DNA from: Duodenibacillus sp.
Lineage (GTDB): Bacteria > Pseudomonadota > Gammaproteobacteria > Burkholderiales > Burkholderiaceae_F
DNA: 40,204 bases
Direction of reading: 5' to 3'
Assembly: GCA_017628205.1 (NCBI GenBank)
Contig: JAGBZO010000010.1
Span: 1 to 40,204 of the forward strand
In this document: positions 6,818-34,736 of the stretch, one piece after another
How the letters are laid out: every line of letters starts with the position of its first letter
Numbering within the stretch: position 1 is the first letter of the stretch
Made by a program: the position numbers and the translations under genes
Notes under the pieces: model-generated
Database searches by the model: none
What the model was told of the DNA's origin: nothing
Seen by the model: the letters and a program-made list of their open reading frames with translations, nothing else

Positions 6818-8224
6818 ATGCCGCCGGTTGAAATGATCGACTTAGTGAAAACCGCCCGCGCCTTTGAAGAAGTGGGCGACGCCCCCGTCGTTCAAAAGAC
6901 GGAGGTCGGGAAAATGGGTTCGGCCGACGTCACTGTCGTCGCCGACGCACGCGCCAAGGCCGACGCCGACATGGCACGTAATGTCATCGAACACATTCGT
7001 CAAACCAAGGGGATGGAGGCGAAAAACGTCACGGAAGCCGAACGACTCTTCGGCGCTTTGCTCACGTCGGGAAAGCCGCTGAGCGGCCGCGAGGTGGCGG
7101 CCGTCATTACGACGACGATTCGCAGCGTGCAGGTCGAATGCGATCCCGAAACCGCCGCCCAAACCTTGGAAGAATTTGCCCGAACGGTCCAAGACATTCC
7201 TTTGCATTATCTCAAGGAAGAACATTTGCCGCCGCGCCTGGCCCAGGTCAATCCGGCGCAAGTGCAAGCCTTCGTTGAGGAGCGCATCGTTGAAAATCAG
7301 CCTCCCGTCGATACTCGACAGCCTGTATTGCGGGCGACGCCGACTATCGATGCGGCTCGCCAAGATCTCGAGCAGTTTCGTACCGAACTGGGCGGATCGC
7401 CTCATTTCCCCGACGGCAACCCGACATACAGTCTTAAAACCAAGAAGTTTTTCGGTATTCCTCTGGAAGCCTGTCAGGCGTGGTGTCAGAAACAGATCGA
7501 CAACAGCACGATTTTGAAAGGCTTTTGGAAAGCGGTCGGTCGCGCTTTCGGGTTGTCCGACGTTCAACAGACGCAGTTTGAAACCGCCGCCCTGTTTATC
7601 GAAAGTATGCGTTTGTTGTCGGCCAATCGCGATCGCATTGCCGAGGCCTTCCGTCGCAGTACGGCCGAAGGTCAGGCGCTGATGGGCGAGACGGCTCGAC
7701 TGGCTTGTCACCCGAGCTTGAACGGCGGAGCCGAAGGGATGATTCGCAATATCGACAGCAGCCTCGAGATGTTTGAAACGCAGTACGCCAATGCCAAGAG
7801 CCGAGGCGAACTGTTGGATTTCTTCCAAGCATTGCAGGGCGTTTGCTTTGAAAACCGCATGACAATGCTCACCGAGTATGCCATGGCGCACGTCGATCTG
7901 AATCCGGTAAACGAAGAGGTGCAAAACCAAGGCGGTTTGAATCTTAAGCGTGAGATGGTCGACCATCTGTCGACCGATACGATGGCAACCGCACTTATGA
8001 AGGAAATCGGGGCGATTATCAACACGAACCCCGACGTGAAAATGACATGGGACGTCATTTCCACCCACCTGAAGGACTACTGCGTCGGCATGTTGCGTCC
8101 CGCCACTGACAATGAGGGCAACGTCTTGCTTGATGAAAACGGCCAACTGGTCGTTCGTGCCATTACGCCGGAAGACGTCGACAATTTGCGTGAGTACATG
8201 AATTTGATGCTTTGCTTCGAATGA
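6818..8224 (+). CDS. Candidate type III secreted protein, partner of upstream chaperone
   Basis: A 468-residue, mostly alpha-helical soluble protein with no signal peptide or membrane segment. I do not recognise a family. Residues 1-190 are acidic and probably partly disordered (Val/Ala/Glu/Pro rich, with linker-like stretches around ENQPPVDTRQP), as expected for a secretion signal plus chaperone-binding region. From about residue 190 a globular helical domain follows (FFGIPLEACQAWCQKQID, FWKAVGRAFGLSD, LLDFFQALQGVCFENRM), with a short beta-hairpin-like tail before the end. It is preceded at 30 nt by a CesT-type chaperone and followed by a strong terminator, so the two make a closed two-gene unit. 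Alternatives are a gatekeeper-like or regulatory protein. The assignment as an effector is inference from the neighbour only. Confidence 0.5.
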   Translation: MPPVEMIDLVKTARAFEEVGDAPVVQKTEVGKMGSADVTVVADARAKADADMARNVIEHIRQTKGMEAKNVTEAERLFGALLTSGKPLSGREVAAVITTTIRSVQVECDPETAAQTLEEFARTVQDIPLHYLKEEHLPPRLAQVNPAQVQAFVEERIVENQPPVDTRQPVLRATPTIDAARQDLEQFRTELGGSPHFPDGNPTYSLKTKKFFGIPLEACQAWCQKQIDNSTILKGFWKAVGRAFGLSDVQQTQFETAALFIESMRLLSANRDRIAEAFRRSTAEGQALMGETARLACHPSLNGGAEGMIRNIDSSLEMFETQYANAKSRGELLDFFQALQGVCFENRMTMLTEYAMAHVDLNPVNEEVQNQGGLNLKREMVDHLSTDTMATALMKEIGAIINTNPDVKMTWDVISTHLKDYCVGMLRPATDNEGNVLLDENGQLVVRAITPEDVDNLREYMNLMLCFE

Positions 8225-8271
8225 TCGACGTTTGAATCGGTGCCTTCTGAAAATACGACGTTTTCAGGATG

Positions 8272-8310
8272 CGCTCTCCGTTTCTGTCACAGATACGGAG
8301 AGCGTTTTTT
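8272..8310 (+). terminator. Rho-independent terminator after the chaperone/effector pair
   Basis: A perfect 10-bp stem, CGCTCTCCGT (8272-8281) with ACGGAGAGCG (8295-8304), is followed by TTTTTT. Confidence 0.9.
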
Positions 8311-8347
8311 CATACATACCTGAAACTGAGGAGCAAGACGAGACGAC

Positions 8348-9508
8348 TCAATGGCCGCGTGCGTGAACGAGTCCGTAGTGCTCGAATTGACGCGAATCGG
8401 CGCAGACCACATAGAAACGCTTCTCGATGTCATGCAACAGCTCGATACGGGCTATGCGTTGCCGATCGTCAAGGTGGATGCAAATGGCCGCGTCAATGTT
8501 GCCGTTCGGCGTGGTATGTAAAAGACAGGGGATCGAAGCGGGCAAACGGCACCCTGTCTCGTCATGCGTCAAGTGGGCGTAATGAAGCGCGCCGTTACCG
8601 AAAAGCCGAGCCGTTTCGCCAAGCGCACGACGAGCATCGATCGGTTGCGCATCGGACGGGAATCCGGCCCCGTGCAACACGACGCAGGGCGCCATATGGG
8701 CGGCCGTTCGCATCGGACGACGAGTCGTCAGGCCGTCTTTAATCAGGCGTAGCAGATGCACGCGATCCAAGAGCGGGCCGTCCAGATAGGGTTCAAGAGC
8801 GACGTCGCCGACAAGAAGCCCCGTCACGTCGATCGTATTGCCGATGCGTACGCGTTCTTGCTGTTCACAAGAGAGTTCGTCCCAAAGGTGTACGACGCTC
8901 AGAGCTCCCATGCGCGTCAAGATTTCAACGCAACAGGTAGGGCCCGTCATGGCGCTTGACTCCAGCAGTTGCACGTCGCGAACGAGACCAAGCACTTGAA
9001 CGTGACCTGCCGTTCTAGCGTCGAGCCGATCAATCTCACGCAAGGGGCGGATTGGGGCGGGAGCTTGCCAGGCCATGGCAACCTCTTCGTCGTTTTCGAT
9101 GTACTCGACGGTATCGGCGAGCAACGTCACTTGCATCGTGATGACGTCGTCCGAGAGCAAACTCGGCAATACGTCCGCGTGATGCAACTCCACCGGAACA
9201 CAACGGACGTCGGACTCAAGCGGACTCACCCAAACGGGCGTACGCAAGGCCGACGCCGTCGTGCCGTAATGCGGTGCGGCCGCAATGCGTACCGTCCAAA
9301 CGGTATCGCTCGCATGCCCGACGCTTTGGGTGTGATTGAGAAACACCTCGTCTTGCGACTCGGGACGCACGCGAGAGTATTCCCACTGTCCTTCACGCAC
9401 GTAGTCGTACTCTTTGGCATAGCCTCGAATCGTAGCGTCGGGGTGGGCAAAACGTGCGTCGGCGTCGGTTAAGGTCGGTTTGGAAATGCGGGTAACGGTT
9501 GCGGTCAT
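8348..9508 (-). CDS. Protein of unknown function with OB-fold-like region
   Basis: I use the ATG at 9508 (386 aa), because GGAGAG lies 6 nt upstream; a longer frame opens at 9571 without a ribosome site. No family is recognised. The central part, about residues 165-250, reads HVQVLGLVRDVQLLES, then CVEILTRMGALSVVHLWDEL and VRIGNTIDVTGLLVGDVALEPYLDG, an alternating strand pattern typical of OB-fold nucleic-acid-binding modules. The C-terminal region (HGAGFPSDAQPIDARRALGETARLF) is also unassigned. There is no signal peptide or membrane segment, so it should be cytoplasmic. It faces away from the gene at 9894 across a 385-base gap containing inverted repeats. It could be a replication- or plasmid-like nucleic-acid-binding protein; the function is unknown. 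Confidence 0.7.
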   Translation of the reverse strand: MTATVTRISKPTLTDADARFAHPDATIRGYAKEYDYVREGQWEYSRVRPESQDEVFLNHTQSVGHASDTVWTVRIAAAPHYGTTASALRTPVWVSPLESDVRCVPVELHHADVLPSLLSDDVITMQVTLLADTVEYIENDEEVAMAWQAPAPIRPLREIDRLDARTAGHVQVLGLVRDVQLLESSAMTGPTCCVEILTRMGALSVVHLWDELSCEQQERVRIGNTIDVTGLLVGDVALEPYLDGPLLDRVHLLRLIKDGLTTRRPMRTAAHMAPCVVLHGAGFPSDAQPIDARRALGETARLFGNGALHYAHLTHDETGCRLPASIPCLLHTTPNGNIDAAICIHLDDRQRIARIELLHDIEKRFYVVCADSRQFEHYGLVHARGH

Positions 9509-28660: not shown

Positions 28661-30358
28661 TCATGAAACCGGCGCCGCCACGGTAAAGGACCACAAGGCG
28701 ATCAAAATCAACTGTCCCGAGACGATGCGCAGGAACATCGTGAGCGGATAGACGGTCGAGTAGGCGATGGCCGACGAATTGTTGTCCGTCACGCTGCCCG
28801 CATAGGCCAGTGCCGGCGGGTTCGTCGTCGTGCCCGCCAACAGCCCCATGATCGAGTGGTAATTCATGTTGTAAACGTGACGCGCCACGTAACCGACGAT
28901 CAGCAACGGCACGATCGTGATGACGAGTCCGAGCCCCATGTACAAGGGGCCGTTGCCGTGCACGACGGCTTCGACAAAGGGCGTGCCCGCCGCCAATCCC
29001 ACGCTCGCCAAGAAAAGCGCCATTCCAAGTTCGCGCAGCATCAGATTGACGGAGCTCGTCGTGTAAGTCACGAGATGCAACTGCGAGCCGTAACGACCGA
29101 GCAAAATGGCGACGATCAAAGGCCCGCCAGCCAGCCCCAACTTGACGGGAACCGGCATGCCCGGGATGGCCAAAGGAAGGCTCCCGAACACGATCCCCAA
29201 CGCGATGCCGATGAAGATCATAATGAGATTGGGCATTTCAAGGCGCTTGACCTGATTGCCGAGACGCCGTTCCAAACGCTTGAGCTGGCTTTCCGGGCCG
29301 ACGGTGTGCACCGTATCGCCCACTTGCAAGTGCAGGTTCGAATACGGAAAGAGTTCCATGCCGGCACGGTAGACGCGGGTGATGTTGGCACCTTCGTAAT
29401 GACTTAAATGCAAATCGGCGATCGTCATGCCGTTGACGTCATGACGCGAAATCAAAATGCGGCGGCTCATGAGGCGCGACGAGTCGGTCGTCGTCAAGTC
29501 GACGTCGTCGCGTTCGGCGCCGAAAAAGGCGACGATGGCTTCTTTATGTTCTTCTTGCGTCACGATGCGCAAAACGTCGCCCTGGCACACCGACGTATCG
29601 CCCGAAACGGACGTGATTTCACCGTTGCGCATCAAACGAGAGCCGACGAAGGCTCGCCCGATAAAGTTGCGAATGTCCCCGAGGGTACGGCCCTCGAGCG
29701 CTCGATTCGCCACTTCGACGTGAAAATAAATCGGCGCGTGGCTGTGGGCTTTTTCGTCTTCGTCCCAGTGGCGATCTTCCTCCGCCAAATCGATGTCGAA
29801 CCAACGACGCAGGAAAACGGCCGTTCCAATGATGGAGACGACGGCCAGCGGATAGGCGCAGGCGTAAGCCACGGCAATATTCTCACCCGTGTAATTCAAT
29901 TGCGCGAGCGCTTCTTGCGTGGCCCCGAGCCCGGGCGTATTGGTGACGGCGCCGTAGTGGATCCCCAAAAACTGGGGTAAAGACAACGTGTCGGAAAAAA
30001 TGAAATACAAAATCACCGTGACGAGCAAGCTCAAGCCCACGCCCGTGATCGCGAGTTTGTTCAGGAGCACGCCGCCGCTTTTAAAGGAGGAGAAAAAGCT
30101 CGGTCCGACCTGCAGCCCGATAAAAAAGACAAAGAGGATGAGACCGAACTCGCGGATGAACTGCAGGACCTGCGGGTTGACGTCGAACCCCGCGTAATTG
30201 ACGGCGAGCCCCACAAAGAGCACGCAGGTCAACCCCAACGACACGCCGGCCACCTTGATGTGTCCGATGGCAACGCCCGCCGCAATGACGAACGAATACA
30301 CTAACAAGACGTGAGCGATCGAATTGGAATCGAATAACAGGGGAGTGAGCCAGTCCAT
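28661..30358 (-). CDS. AspT/YidE/YbjL-family membrane transporter with two TrkA-C domains
   Basis: A 565-residue integral membrane protein. Around 5-6 transmembrane segments come first (e.g. VLLVYSFVIAAGVAIGHI, FGLILFVFFIGLQVGPSFF), then a cytoplasmic loop with two TrkA-C type domains (LEGRTLGDIRNF..FVGSRLM, and HLQVGDTVHTVGPESQLKRL), then five or six more helices ending LRIVSGQLILIALWSF. The motif NTPGLGATQEALAQL is typical of the family. Members include the aspartate:alanine exchanger AspT and the uncharacterised E. coli YidE and YbjL, so aspartate or a related dicarboxylic acid is a reasonable guess. It is divergent from the fez cluster across a 425-base gap. Confidence 0.85.
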   Translation of the reverse strand: MDWLTPLLFDSNSIAHVLLVYSFVIAAGVAIGHIKVAGVSLGLTCVLFVGLAVNYAGFDVNPQVLQFIREFGLILFVFFIGLQVGPSFFSSFKSGGVLLNKLAITGVGLSLLVTVILYFIFSDTLSLPQFLGIHYGAVTNTPGLGATQEALAQLNYTGENIAVAYACAYPLAVVSIIGTAVFLRRWFDIDLAEEDRHWDEDEKAHSHAPIYFHVEVANRALEGRTLGDIRNFIGRAFVGSRLMRNGEITSVSGDTSVCQGDVLRIVTQEEHKEAIVAFFGAERDDVDLTTTDSSRLMSRRILISRHDVNGMTIADLHLSHYEGANITRVYRAGMELFPYSNLHLQVGDTVHTVGPESQLKRLERRLGNQVKRLEMPNLIMIFIGIALGIVFGSLPLAIPGMPVPVKLGLAGGPLIVAILLGRYGSQLHLVTYTTSSVNLMLRELGMALFLASVGLAAGTPFVEAVVHGNGPLYMGLGLVITIVPLLIVGYVARHVYNMNYHSIMGLLAGTTTNPPALAYAGSVTDNNSSAIAYSTVYPLTMFLRIVSGQLILIALWSFTVAAPVS

Positions 30359-30702: not shown

Positions 30703-30731
30703 TTGCTAATGAGACTCATTCTCGTTAAAAT
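30703..30731 (+). promoter_or_regulatory. Fur-repressed promoter of the fez cluster
   Basis: A -35 TTGCTA (30703-30708), a 17-bp spacer and a -10 TAAAAT (30726-30731). The Fur box GCTAATGAGACTCATTCTC (30705-30723) matches the 19-bp consensus GATAATGATAATCATTATC at 15 of 19 bases, with a perfect core AATGAG-A-CTCATT. It covers the spacer, the classical position for repression by Fur with iron. Confidence 0.78.
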
Positions 30732-30783
30732 GACATTATTCGGTTCCTATGATCGGAATCGTCTTACGTAAAAGGAGAAAAGA

Positions 30784-31089
30784 ATGAACAACACGACCAA
30801 ATACGGCCTGATCTTTTTGGGCGGCATTGCCTTGGGCGCATTGGGTGCCGTCGCACTGATGCGCGCCAAACCCGGTGCCAAGGATTTGGCCACCGATCTC
30901 ATCAGCGGCGGACTGGATCTGCGCGACAAGCTGATGAAGGGCATCGAAGGCGTCAAGGAAGACATTGCCGACGTCGTTGCCGAAGCCCAGCACAAGTCTC
31001 AGGAACGCAAGCAGGCTCAGGAACAAGCCGAAGTCGTCGTTCCGGCCGAACCCGTTGCGGCTGCCCCCGAAGCCAAACCTTCCGTTTAA
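30784..31089 (+). CDS. Small Gly-rich membrane protein, fezA-like / YtxH-like, first gene of ferrosome-type cluster
   Basis: A 101-residue protein (AAAGGAG upstream): one membrane helix at about residues 7-26 (YGLIFLGGIALGALGAVAL) with GxxxG spacing, then a Lys/Asp-rich amphipathic helix (DLRDKLMKGIEGVKEDIADV) and an Ala/Pro-rich acidic tail. YtxH-like small proteins look the same. In ferrosome (fez) clusters of Desulfovibrio magneticus, Rhodopseudomonas, Shewanella and Clostridioides difficile a small Gly-rich membrane protein precedes the P1B-6 ATPase and is thought to act at the ferrosome membrane. The match here is by size, topology and gene order. It ends 45 nt before the ATPase and follows the Fur box directly. 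Confidence 0.7.
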   Translation: MNNTTKYGLIFLGGIALGALGAVALMRAKPGAKDLATDLISGGLDLRDKLMKGIEGVKEDIADVVAEAQHKSQERKQAQEQAEVVVPAEPVAAAPEAKPSV

Positions 31090-31134
31090 TCGTTTGGAAG
31101 CGTCTCGAGTCGTCTCGGACGCGAAAGGTTGCTT

Positions 31135-33447
31135 ATGCAGTTTGCACTCGTGCATGAAATCGGTTTGCGTCAGCGTTGGAAAACGCGTCAGACCGTTTCC
31201 AAAGCGTCCGCCCGCGTGTTGGAAGCCGAAATGAGCGCCATCGACGGCGTCGATTCCGTTTCGGCCAATCCCGTTACCGGCTCGGTTGTCGTCATCATGA
31301 CCTCGGCCGCCGCCAAAGCGCGCGTTCTGGCGTATTTTGCAGGACTGGTCGCCGCGCCGCCCATTTTGCGCGTTGGTACGACCGGCGCCGTGACGTCGGT
31401 CAAGCCCGAACCGACGCGTCAAGAAGAAAAGCCCGACCTTTATACGCGTGCGTTTCAGAGCGCCCCGTTGGCCGCGATTTTCGACAAGGTGCGTTCGTTC
31501 GGCAGTGCCGGTTCGCGCAAAATCCGTGACGCGGTGCAAGAATCCTCCGAACTCGATTTCGCACCTCTCGTTCACTGGGTCGCCATTCGTCCCATTCAAC
31601 CGATGTTGGTTAACACGCTCAACACCTTGTTGGGCGCCGTTCCCTACGTCGTCAAAGGCATCAAATCCCTGTTTCAAGGCAAGCTCAACGTCGACGTCTT
31701 GGACGCGGCCGCCATCGGCCTTTCGATTCTGCGTCGCGATTTCAAAACCGCGAGCGTGGTGATGTTGATGCTCGGTTTGGGCGAAATGCTCGAACGCTAC
31801 ACCCGCAAAAAGACGCTCGAAGGCTTGACGGAACAGTTGGCCATTCGCGTTGACAAGGTTTGGGTGCGTCAGGGTGAAAACCTGCTCGAAATGCCGCTCA
31901 AAGACATCGGTCCCGACGATCGCGTGGTCGTGCGCGCGGGCGGCGTCATTCCCGTCGACGGTACGGTCGTCGGCGGCGATGCGGCCGTCAACCAGGCCAC
32001 GATGACGGGCGAACCGCTTGCCGTGCATCGCACGATCGGCTCGTCCGTCTTTGCCGGCACCGTTGTAGAGGACGGCGAAATCGACATTGCGCCTACTTCG
32101 ATCGGCGACGGCACGCGCTTGAATCAAATCGTCAAATTCATCGAAACGAGCGAACAGAGCAAAGCGGGCATTCAGGGCAAGGCCGAAAAGATCGCCGACG
32201 CCGTGGTGCCGTTCAACTTCGGTTTGGCCGCGCTCGTGTTCCTCGTCACGCGCGACTGGATGCGCGCCGCCTCCGTTTTGATGGTCGACTATTCCTGCGC
32301 CTTGCGTTTGGCCACGCCGTTGGCCATTCTCACCAGCATGAAGCAAGGCACGGAGCGCGGCATCGTGGTCAAGGGCGGCCGCTACCTCGAAGCGCTTGCC
32401 GAAGTCGACACCGTCGTCTTTGACAAGACGGGTACGCTGACCCATGCCTGTCCCCGTTTGACGGACGTGGTGGCTTTGGACGGCTCTTCGAGCGACGAGC
32501 TGCTTCGTTTGGCCGCCTGTCTTGAAGAACACTTCCCGCATCCGGTCTCGCGCGCCATCGTCGAACGCGCCCGCGAACTCGGGCTCGATCACGGCGACGA
32601 ACCGCACGACGCCTCCGTTCAGTACATCGTCGCGCACGGCATTTGCTCGAGCGTGGACGGTGAGAATGTTATTCTCGGCGGACGCCATTTCGTTGAAGAC
32701 GACGAGGGCGTCGACATGACGCCGGGCCTGTTGGCCGCACAACGCCTGGCCGAGCAGGGCAAGTCGATCCTTTACATGGCTCGCGGCGGACGTCTCGTCG
32801 GCGTACTCGGCATCGAAGATCCCGTCCGTGAAGAGGCCGCCCGTGTCATTCGCGCCTTGCGCGAACGCGGTGTCAAGCGCGTCGTGATGCTGACCGGGGA
32901 CGACGAGAAGACGGCAAGCGTCGTTGCCAACGCTTTGGACATCGACGACTATCGCTCGCAAGTCTTGCCCACCGACAAGGCCGCCTACGTGCACGAACTC
33001 AAGCGCCAAGGCGCCCGCGTTTTGATGGTCGGCGACGGTATCAACGACAGTCCCGCTTTGTCGGCCTCCGACGTTGCGGTGACGTTGAGCGACGGCAGCG
33101 CCATCGCTCAGGAAGTGGCCGACGTCGTGCTGACCAACAACGTGCTCAGCGATTTGCCCGAAGCCATCGATTTGGCCCGCGCCACCATGCGTCGCATTCG
33201 TCAGAACTTCGGTTTGTCCGTCGGTTTGAACTCCGCGTTCATGGCGGGCGGTTTGACCGGTCTGATGACGCCGGCCGTCGGCGCTCTGTTGCACAATGCG
33301 ACGACCATCGGCGTTTGCTTAAACGCCATGCGTTCCCCCACGTCGCAGGCGGCAAGCCCCGAACAATGGCTCTATGAAGTGTTGCAATCGCTCGAGCACG
33401 CCAAAGACACGTTGGGCGTGGAACGACTCGAGTACCAGGAGATTTAA
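31135..33447 (+). CDS. fezB: P1B-6-type heavy-metal ATPase, FezB-like (ferrosome iron transporter)
   Basis: A 770-residue P-type ATPase from ATG 31135 (GAAAGG upstream). Motifs: DYSCALRLATP in the sixth helix (S387-C388-A389), TGEP (291-294), the phosphorylation site DKTGT (D430), HP in EEHFPHPVSRA (H469-P470) and MVGDGINDSPAL (633-641). The SCA motif instead of CPC or SPC is the signature of the P1B-6 group, which includes FezB, needed for iron accumulation in ferrosomes. The N-terminal ~80 residues are an HMA2-like domain without CxxC. The preceding small membrane protein, the following HMA2 protein and the Fur promoter complete the fez arrangement. It should pump ferrous iron into an intracellular compartment; export from the cell is the alternative. 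Confidence 0.82.
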   Translation: MQFALVHEIGLRQRWKTRQTVSKASARVLEAEMSAIDGVDSVSANPVTGSVVVIMTSAAAKARVLAYFAGLVAAPPILRVGTTGAVTSVKPEPTRQEEKPDLYTRAFQSAPLAAIFDKVRSFGSAGSRKIRDAVQESSELDFAPLVHWVAIRPIQPMLVNTLNTLLGAVPYVVKGIKSLFQGKLNVDVLDAAAIGLSILRRDFKTASVVMLMLGLGEMLERYTRKKTLEGLTEQLAIRVDKVWVRQGENLLEMPLKDIGPDDRVVVRAGGVIPVDGTVVGGDAAVNQATMTGEPLAVHRTIGSSVFAGTVVEDGEIDIAPTSIGDGTRLNQIVKFIETSEQSKAGIQGKAEKIADAVVPFNFGLAALVFLVTRDWMRAASVLMVDYSCALRLATPLAILTSMKQGTERGIVVKGGRYLEALAEVDTVVFDKTGTLTHACPRLTDVVALDGSSSDELLRLAACLEEHFPHPVSRAIVERARELGLDHGDEPHDASVQYIVAHGICSSVDGENVILGGRHFVEDDEGVDMTPGLLAAQRLAEQGKSILYMARGGRLVGVLGIEDPVREEAARVIRALRERGVKRVVMLTGDDEKTASVVANALDIDDYRSQVLPTDKAAYVHELKRQGARVLMVGDGINDSPALSASDVAVTLSDGSAIAQEVADVVLTNNVLSDLPEAIDLARATMRRIRQNFGLSVGLNSAFMAGGLTGLMTPAVGALLHNATTIGVCLNAMRSPTSQAASPEQWLYEVLQSLEHAKDTLGVERLEYQEI

Positions 33448-33448
33448 C

Positions 33449-33976
33449 ATGCAAGACATGATTCGTTCGTTTGTTCCGGGGCGCTTGCGCGCCCGCCATC
33501 CGGGCTTGCTCGGCATGGACGCCGAGACCGTGGCGCAAACGACGGAAACCATTTTGGCTTTGGAAGGCATTACCGACGTCGCCATCAACCCCCGCGTCGG
33601 TTCGATCAAAATCGAATGGGATCCCAACGTCCTGTCCGAAGAGGATTTGGTCGGTTATCTGGCCATGTACGAAGCCATGTTGAACGTCGGAAGCGACGAG
33701 CAGCAAGAGTCATCCCCCGTCCAAGCGAACGCCGCCGACGCCAAAACGTGCGCCTGCATCGACTCGTTGTTGGAAAAGGGCGCCCGCTTGATCGCTCCGG
33801 GACAGAAAAACGCCAAGCGCGCCAAGCGCATGGCGCAAAACCGCCTGATGCTTGCCCTCTTGGGGGGCTCGGTGGCGTCGTTGGCCTCGGGCTGTTACCG
33901 CGTGCATGCGGTGTTGGGCTGGTCGTTCGTCGGCTTGCTGGCGCTGCACCTCTACCAGCATCGCAACGTCCTCTGA
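33449..33976 (+). CDS. HMA2-domain membrane protein, FezC-like
   Basis: A 175-residue protein from ATG 33449, one base after the fezB stop, with CAGGAGA upstream. Residues 1-80 (MIRSFVPGRLRARHPGLL, ETILALEGITDVAINPRVG, SIKIEWDPNVLSEEDLVGYL) have the HMA2 ferredoxin-like fold with the G-R-x-R start and no CxxC. A linker with CAC follows, a basic stretch (KNAKRAKRMAQNR), and a membrane segment pair at the C-terminus (LMLALLGGSVASLASG, VLGWSFVGLLALHLY). In the ferrosome clusters of Desulfovibrio and relatives a protein with an HMA-type domain (FezC) follows fezB. A role in passing iron to, or anchoring, the ATPase is likely. Confidence 0.72.
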   Translation: MQDMIRSFVPGRLRARHPGLLGMDAETVAQTTETILALEGITDVAINPRVGSIKIEWDPNVLSEEDLVGYLAMYEAMLNVGSDEQQESSPVQANAADAKTCACIDSLLEKGARLIAPGQKNAKRAKRMAQNRLMLALLGGSVASLASGCYRVHAVLGWSFVGLLALHLYQHRNVL

Positions 33977-33989
33977 TCGGGAGTCGGCT

Positions 33990-34337
33990 ATGGCGAAATC
34001 GTGGACGCAACGCATCTTGCGCGCTTTGTTGATTGCCATCGTCGTCATGTCGGCGGCAACGACGCTCTTTTTTGCTGCCGCCGTCTGTTTGGGCATGATC
34101 GTCGTGTTGGTGTCGCTGTTGGCGGTCGCCTGGGCGGCCAACCCCGCGGCGTTTCGTCGTACGGCCGCCGCACTGCGCGATCAGTTGAGCGCTTGGATCG
34201 ATCAGTTGACGCAACTCGTTTCGCACTTCATGACATGCGTGCGTACCGGGATCGATACGGCAATGAACGCCCGCGATGCGGCCGAGCCGCAACAAAAGGA
34301 TCCGTCCCGATCGGACGATACGCCGGCCAAACCCTAA
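33990..34337 (+). CDS. Small membrane protein, last gene of the fez-type cluster
   Basis: A 115-residue protein from ATG 33990 (GGGAG 6 nt upstream), beginning MAKSWTQRILRALLIAIVVM. Residues 10-50 form one or two hydrophobic helices (AATTLFFAAAVCLGMIVVLV, SLLAVAWAANPAAF), followed by an amphipathic helix and a charged tail (EPQQKDPSRSDDTP). I do not recognise a family. It starts 13 nt after the FezC-like gene and is followed directly by a terminator, so it belongs to the same Fur-controlled unit. It may be a ferrosome membrane accessory protein; this is inference from position alone. Confidence 0.65.
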   Translation: MAKSWTQRILRALLIAIVVMSAATTLFFAAAVCLGMIVVLVSLLAVAWAANPAAFRRTAAALRDQLSAWIDQLTQLVSHFMTCVRTGIDTAMNARDAAEPQQKDPSRSDDTPAKP

Positions 34338-34353
34338 CGCCGGGAGTCAAACG

Positions 34354-34385
34354 AATAAGCCCGCTTTCAAGAGCGGGCTTATTTT
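34354..34385. terminator. Terminator of the fez-type cluster
   Basis: A perfect 12-bp stem, AATAAGCCCGCT (34354-34365) with AGCGGGCTTATT (34372-34383), followed by TT. The next gene is convergent and can use it too. Confidence 0.88.
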
Positions 34386-34400
34386 GCACTTGGACGACGA

Positions 34401-34736
34401 TCAAGCGGCTTCATACCATTGACGCAAACGTCGGCTGAGCGGCATAAAGGCACTGATGCCGGTGAGCAGCGCAACACTTACCAGAATAATGGTAGCCGTC
34501 GTGTAAGGCATGCCATAAAGACGGCGCATTTCTACGAGAACCCAGGTCGTGCGCAACCATTCGGCGGCAAACGTCAAGAGCGCAACGCATTGAACCCACG
34601 GGATCGCGCGGTGGCGAATCAACAAGCCGGACAAAAGCATTGCCGGCAGTGCGATGAAGGCGTACAAGCCATGGAAATAACAGTGAGCCGCAAACAGCAC
34701 GTGGGCAAGGGCGGGAAGAATCAAACGCCACATCAT
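34401..34736 (-). CDS. Small multi-helix membrane protein, unknown
   Basis: A 111-residue hydrophobic protein with about four transmembrane segments (LILPALAHVLFAAHCYFHGL, FIALPAMLLSGLLI, WVQCVALLTFAAEWLRT, TATIILVSVALLTGISAF) and a basic C-terminal end (SRRLRQWYEAA). It resembles many small inner-membrane proteins and I do not recognise the family. It converges on the fez-type cluster and is not part of it. The ribosome site is a weak GGAGA before the ATG at 34736. Monocistronic. Confidence 0.72.
   Translation of the reverse strand: MMWRLILPALAHVLFAAHCYFHGLYAFIALPAMLLSGLLIRHRAIPWVQCVALLTFAAEWLRTTWVLVEMRRLYGMPYTTATIILVSVALLTGISAFMPLSRRLRQWYEAA

Follow-up and report, generated by a model that had tools for sequence, protein, structure and literature searches.

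Does the four-gene operon on a 40,204-nucleotide contig of Duodenibacillus sp. (JAGBZO010000010.1, assembly GCA_017628205.1) encode a fez system, the kind of gene cluster that builds ferrosomes, or do its membrane proteins serve another purpose? The entire contig is the stretch analyzed here, referred to below as the window, and it belongs to a draft genome of 1.83 Mb with a completeness of 85.66%. The operon occupies positions 30784 to 34337 of the + strand, on which the features described below lie unless stated otherwise, and consists of four head-to-tail open reading frames (ORFs), genes A to D, with gaps of 45, 1, and 13 nt. An earlier note on this DNA had described four co-directional genes behind a Fur-box promoter and read them as a ferrosome cluster. 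The arrangement is as it described. Its label of a gut-type betaproteobacterium has one weak pointer in the sequence, FabF, whose nearest match among plasmid-collection records is from Neisseria (58.9%). The gene content agrees with that reading in the P1B-6 motifs and clade of the ATPase, the DUF6110 protein of FezA type, the FezC build of the third gene, the Fur site, and the conserved A-B-C order; ferrosome formation itself stays a prediction. On this sequence evidence, we put the probability at roughly two in three that the locus is a fez operon with a Fur-repressed promoter, the gene order A-B-C-D, and a hairpin at its end.

The ATPase

Gene B (31135 to 33447) encodes a predicted FezB-type P1B-6 ATPase of 770 amino acids, counted from the ATG at 31135, with the E1-E2 ATPase and hydrolase domains of Pfam. 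The two motifs named in the earlier note are present, the metal-site motif SCA at residues 387 to 389 (32293 to 32301) and the phosphorylation motif DKTGT at residues 430 to 434 (32422 to 32436). An HN pair at residues 720 and 721 (33292 to 33297) falls in transmembrane helix 6 (TM6). HN in TM6 is a named P1B6 feature in PMC9374683, which, like the other papers given here by PMC number, is cited from excerpts of its text.

A search of the 67 genomes of the host's family matched gene B at E ≤ 1e-90 in 37. Neighborhoods were fetched for 34 of these (L035 to L068), with the host's own genome, G002, and G054 standing outside this set. One fetched locus, L068, holds a CPC pump without gene A or C and was left out of the fez loci; a fez-type (SCA) pump is present in 36 of the 67 genomes, namely, in 33 fetched loci, the window, G002, and G054. 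All 36 ATPases carry SCA, and all carry HN in TM6. Among the 16 other pumps of the set, 15 lack SCA and HN, and the remaining one, from Methanobrevibacter, combines HN with CPC and so resembles CtpC, a CPC pump described as P1B6-like (PMC9374683). The ATPase of L041 (relative G001) reads DKTGS, while the window and the other 32 fetched fez-type relatives read D[KR]TGT. The E1-E2 domain starts at residue 240 in the window, 243 in L037, and 295 in L047 versus residues 188 to 194 in L057, L062, and L064; the linker from the HMA_2-like domain to the pump core has therefore lengthened in some genera.

Phylogeny separated these pumps from the established exporters. The first tree held 47 of 55 rows (seven near-copies and L041, with its DKTGS, were left out), and the second held 30 of 56, with P1B-4 represented by one reference. 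The fez-type rows made up one side of a branch in both, with support of 100/100 and 100/99, respectively, and stood apart from the CopA, CopF, FixI-like, ZntA, and PbrA pumps and from a CzcP-like P1B-4 pump. The names of the Escherichia coli pumps were taken from the record; the labels PbrA, CopF, CzcP, and FixI are those that we presume from neighboring genes and motifs. Grouping with P1B-4 or P1B-1 pumps, the outcome that the earlier note had set against its own proposal, did not occur with the pumps used. The SPC motif of P1B-4 exporters, which the CzcP-like reference has, is replaced by SCA in gene B. The fez-type clade also contains pumps from Azospirillum, Arcobacter, a Helicobacter draft genome (SCA), Deinococcus (SCV), and Cereibacter (ACP); thus, SCA varies within the clade as a whole, whereas every fez-type pump of the host's family has it.

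The genes on either side of the ATPase

Gene A (30784 to 31089; 101 amino acids) encodes the small Gly-rich membrane protein that had been noted ahead of the ATPase. It matches DUF6110 (PF19605; E = 1.2e-7, above the cut-off) and is a predicted FezA-type protein, with a tail in which no DLHDHDH-like motif was seen by eye. DUF6110 genes typically lie beside P1B6 ATPases (PMC9374683), and the fez-type ATPases of Deinococcus come after a DUF6110 gene. Gene C (33449 to 33976; 175 amino acids), likewise anticipated as an HMA2-domain membrane protein, matches HMA_2 (PF19991; E = 2e-7, above the cut-off). Its last membrane helix holds His153 and His167; all 34 aligned rows have both, and both are invariant in a 21-row alignment that includes the Azospirillum HMA2 protein. 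With a threshold of E ≤ 0.1, HMA_2 was matched in all of 21 rows and DUF4405 in 7 of them. FezC was shown to be a heme b cytochrome, and in an AlphaFold model its homodimer forms the heme sites (PMC11334425). Gene C has this FezC build, an HMA_2 domain and a membrane helix with predicted heme-ligand histidines.

The three genes travel together. A gene-A homologue lies upstream of gene B in 33 of the 34 fetched loci, a gene-C homologue lies downstream in the same 33 (32 found by BLAST and L061 by position and alignment), and the A-B-C order is kept in all of these. A class-wide search with the FezC model found matches at E ≤ 1e-6 in 12 of 369 genomes. Those outside the window fell within model positions 5 to 115 of 169, which take in the HMA part but stop short of the His helix, and the ORF lists of their loci, which extend about 1.5 kb per side and could miss pumps that are farther off or cut at an end, held three CPC pumps and no SCA motif. 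We rejected these matches as fez clusters on those grounds. An order-wide search gave matches at E ≤ 1e-8 in 9 of 300 genomes, 7 of them in the host's family; the two outside it spanned model positions 4 to 82 only.

The promoter and its Fur site

Upstream of gene A lies a sigma-70-like promoter, TTGCTA-17-TAAAAT (30703 to 30731), whose -35 and -10 elements show 9 of 12 consensus matches across a 17-nt spacer; with two such pairs found in the region versus 1.4 expected, it is weak and not significant alone. The Fur box AATGAGACTCATTCTCGTT (30708 to 30726) sits inside this spacer. It matches what we take to be the classical Fur consensus at 15 of 19 positions, the score that the earlier note had given, and 1 of 60 mononucleotide shuffles reached that score. 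The palindrome AATGAGACTCATTCTCGTT, allowing up to three mismatches, occurs at seven places (10 strand matches) in the 1.83-Mb genome, compared with none for a reversed-pattern control. One of these sites precedes a TonB-receptor gene (plug domain above the cut-off) by 33 nt, another precedes feoB by about 330 nt, and a third precedes the first by about 490 nt. The genome has one Fur homologue.

The site was also recovered de novo. Expectation-maximization run without a Fur consensus on 30 upstream regions (the window and 29 relatives, with L038, L058, L060, and L067 left out; up to 220 nt before gene A, upstream bases only) converged on AATGAGAATcATTCTCATT, which is the Fur palindrome, with a log-likelihood gain of 134 versus 27 to 36 in eight mononucleotide-shuffled sets. 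The palindrome reached at least 11 bits in 20 of the 30 regions, and the window's site scored highest, at 23.8 bits. Its position in these 20 regions varies from -32 to -183 relative to the start; alignment of the flanks alone therefore does not account for the motif, although the regions remain related by descent. From this putative site, we infer that the operon is under Fur control. L039 to L041, L044, L047, L049 to L051, and L065 keep the fez genes, but the upstream sequence covered by the search shows no Fur palindrome in them; control may differ there.

The fourth gene

Gene D (33990 to 34337) encodes a protein of 115 amino acids with a stretch of 39 uncharged residues, an invariant proline (Pro52), and an amphipathic helix. 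Relatives are 16 to 26% identical to the window's copy. The uncharged stretch spans 38 to 44 residues in 21 of the 22 rows measured and is followed by the proline and a moderately amphipathic helix (L056 fits no proline rule, and L038, L052, L058, L060, and L067 were left out of the helix statistics). This pattern suggests a membrane hairpin followed by a surface helix. We presume a likeness to reticulon-type proteins, by build only.

Gene D follows gene C in 26 of the 33 fez loci, and these 26 represent five genera. In L041, 1,063 nt (7866 to 8928 of that locus) separate C from an intact D and contain a transposase-like ORF, TnpB-like by eye. L055, on a contig with ambiguous bases, has only a broken gene D ORF, and the contig of L064 stops 98 nt past gene C. 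Three models were trained separately, on the host's own and one allied genus, on genus g16, and on genus g2 alone; from among 3,502 ORFs, they recovered the genes of the other loci (19 of 19, 19 of 19, and 21 of 22, respectively), as well as the window's copy where it was outside the training set and a stand-alone paralogue in the host's own genome. The broken copy of L055 was found by two of the three models, and none of them picked up an unrelated ORF. By these searches, gene D is a real conserved family. It was found in 6 of 300 genomes of the order, all in the host's family and most among the training rows of the model, and was not found outside that family in those 300 genomes.

Comparison with databases gave no assignment for gene D. 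In Pfam, nothing passed the cut-off, and the widest matches covered 2 of 21 rows. The best match of the window's copy, to the PspC transmembrane region (E = 0.0037), was below the cut-off, and a Reticulon match in one row (E = 0.028) was not significant; we read the profile matches in the Protein Data Bank (PDB; best E = 0.00038, to a designed three-helix bundle) as helix composition. An hhalign comparison with 16 small proteins, drawn from four named loci of fez type, gave probabilities of at most 1.3%; this set leaves out the six fez genes reported for Rhodopseudomonas palustris (PMC12016538).

Comparison with described fez clusters

Grant et al. (2022) reportedly described the ferrosome fez clusters of Desulfovibrio magneticus, Shewanella, and R. 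palustris. These clusters share with the window's operon the P1B-6 ATPase, a small membrane protein, and FezC with heme-ligand histidines, whereas here the genes are compact, in the order A-B-C-D under one Fur promoter. For Clostridioides difficile, Pi et al. (2023) reportedly described fezXAB, a cluster that includes fezX. Its FezA and FezB are Fur-repressed and required for ferrosomes (PMC12574912), so the membrane protein FezA, the ATPase FezB, and Fur repression are shared; in contrast to fezXAB, the operon described here has a FezC-type gene and gene D, with no regulator gene adjoining it in the window.

Another related system is the six-gene cluster on plasmid p3 of Azospirillum brasilense (L071), whose SCA ATPase is 41.4% identical to gene B over residues 158 to 744. 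It includes YtxH and other FezA-like small proteins and an HMA2 protein that matches the gene C profile at 99.3%. Unlike the window's operon, it begins with the HMA2 gene, ends with the ATPase, carries one more HMA_2 gene along with other small genes, and has no match to gene D. This Azospirillum operon lies on a large replicon beside an iron ABC transporter. Another fez-type operon (L074) is on pORIO2 of Cereibacter azotoformans, a large plasmid typed as conjugative, with FeoA and TonB receptors encoded nearby. The fez-type cluster of Arcobacter (L072) includes a DUF2202-annotated gene (1982 to 2665) in the group of small genes that precedes its ATPase. A fez cluster in an organism such as the host was not among the literature matches listed, although the founding survey may well include such genomes, and no gene like D was among those matches, the founding fez papers being outside that literature.

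Weighing the alternatives

Several observations weigh against reading the locus as a ferrosome operon that includes gene D. Gene B is tied to FezB through its motifs, through what has been published on the family, and through relatives that are named; a contig scan of genomes with a single protein query yielded two relatives, neither from a ferrosome-proven strain. Of the HMA2-like N terminus without CxxC claimed for the pump, the second part stood, as no CxxC lies N-terminal to the catalytic core, while the HMA_2 match (residues 5 to 64; E = 0.003) is below the Pfam cut-off. The DUF4405 match in the window's gene C is also below its cut-off (E = 0.16). Ten of the 30 upstream regions score below 11 bits, nine of these at 2.6 or less, and they include the close relatives L039 to L041. 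The helix of gene D is only moderately more amphipathic than shuffled sequences (mean z of 1.8, with 10 of 21 rows above 1.6). Gene D is absent from five fez loci (L061, L062, L063, L065, and L066), in all of which the sequence continues for at least 2.6 kb beyond C; not every fez system requires it, then. Lastly, the stand-alone paralogue of gene D (L144; G000:C43, about 316 to 930 on the - strand) encodes about 205 amino acids. This paralogue adjoins the same two ORFs that the relative G004 (L036) has ahead of its fez operon, one acetyltransferase-like by eye and the other with IDSQWL near the protein start; the operon may have moved, leaving the copy behind.

The last two observations bear on the earlier note's suggestion that the fourth gene is a new fez component, which is strengthened by its place after C and its recovery by three models and weakened by the paralogue and the D-less loci. 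Genes A to C could be a fez system that D merely accompanies while serving some unrelated function in the membrane, as the paralogue, the five D-less loci, and the displaced copy in L041 would allow. We regard this as somewhat unlikely, given that D follows C across five genus groups, that the models picked out only these genes, the paralogue, and one broken copy, and that D was not found beyond the family in 300 genomes of the order. Of the D-less loci, the 47-row tree includes L061, L062, L063, and L066, which group with L064 in one FezB clade (100/100); a single gain or a single loss would account for this pattern.

The main rival, which we consider unlikely, is a P1B-6 efflux platform in the plasma membrane, in which A clusters B in the manner of PacL1-CtpC and iron, manganese, or zinc is exported with no organelle. 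DUF6110 is stated to be related to the DUF1490 of PacL, and a role in assembling P1B6 platforms has been suggested for DUF6110 proteins (PMC9374683); moreover, no vesicle is evident from the sequence alone. The mycobacterial PacL1-CtpC zinc efflux platform likewise pairs a one-helix small protein with a P1B6-like ATPase, but it differs in its CPC pump, the metal-binding tail on PacL1, and zinc resistance, and the excerpted text mentions neither a cytochrome gene nor Fur control (PMC9374683). PacL-CtpC systems are marked by a CPC ATPase whose DUF1490 partner carries a metal motif at its C terminus; in the window, the ATPase has SCA and its partner is a DUF6110 protein. Two further points favor the ferrosome operon over this platform. 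A Fur box in the promoter implies expression at low iron, the wrong time for iron efflux, and gene C, whose counterpart in fez clusters is a cytochrome (PMC11334425), has no role in the PacL model as excerpted. An ordinary Cu, Zn, or Co/Ni exporter (P1B-1, P1B-2, or P1B-4) with accessory genes is very improbable: generic heavy-metal and cadmium subfamily models of NCBIfam pass their cut-offs for gene B, but they do so for the Azospirillum relative too, the host's own genome already has two other P1B pumps, both CPC, one in the Cu clade and one in the Zn clade, and the motifs (SCA rather than CPC or SPC, with HN in TM6) and the separate clade led us to reject these three identities.

The flanks of the operon

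The operon is closed by a terminator-like hairpin (34353 to 34384) with a 14-bp stem and a 4-nt loop (-21.8 kcal/mol; z of -5.4), a feature that the earlier note did not mention. Gene D precedes it. The hairpin is absent from the terminator-scan list, probably because its T run is short. Both neighbors are on the opposite (-) strand, a large ORF at 28661 to 30358 and a small ORF at 34401 to 34736.

Ferritin and the fez-type pump

We classed the PF00210 matches of the 67 family genomes as ferritin or bacterioferritin (E ≤ 1e-25), Dps-like, or rubrerythrin-like. NCBIfam typing of 10 sampled proteins gave three in the strong class (one ferritin and two bacterioferritins), four Dps-like, and three rubrerythrin-like; the remaining proteins were classed by E value. 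The strong class occurs in 15 of the 67 genomes: 1 of the 36 with a fez-type pump versus 14 of the 31 without one. Fisher's exact test gave a P value of 4.5e-5 by genome and 0.015 by genus, both of which ignore ancestry and completeness. Because the pattern tracks genera and genome size, it may reflect ancestry. A genus-mate of the host, G009, has neither a fez-type pump nor a strong ferritin match, and the host's own, incomplete genome has one Dps-like, one rubrerythrin-like, and one weak untyped PF00210 match.

A model for the operon and its significance

If the locus is a fez operon, the host would form ferrosomes as follows. When iron is short, Fur would leave the promoter, as its site suggests, and the operon proteins would be made. 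Gene B would pump ferrous iron across a membrane that is becoming, or already is, an intracellular vesicle, while gene A, the small Gly-rich DUF6110 protein, may scaffold or cluster the pump. In a homodimer of the gene C protein, the two histidines would come together as a pair about heme b, and gene C could then move electrons across the vesicle membrane, allowing storage as Fe(III) and release as Fe(II). Gene D, with its predicted hydrophobic hairpin and amphipathic helix, would most likely shape or steady the vesicle membrane or dock the complex.

To our knowledge, no fez protein has yet been assigned a role in shaping the ferrosome membrane, and we know of no account of how that membrane forms. 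Gene D is thus a concrete candidate for this step, a single gene that can be deleted, and the operon is a compact four-gene set suited to tests in a laboratory host. For the family, a fez-type ATPase is carried by more than half of the genomes, and 35 of these 36 have no classical ferritin or bacterioferritin match. A tentative extension, to which we give low odds, is that in this family the ferrosome replaced ferritin as the iron store and that the operon gained gene D once, as a dedicated membrane-shaping hairpin that would help to form or hold the vesicle.

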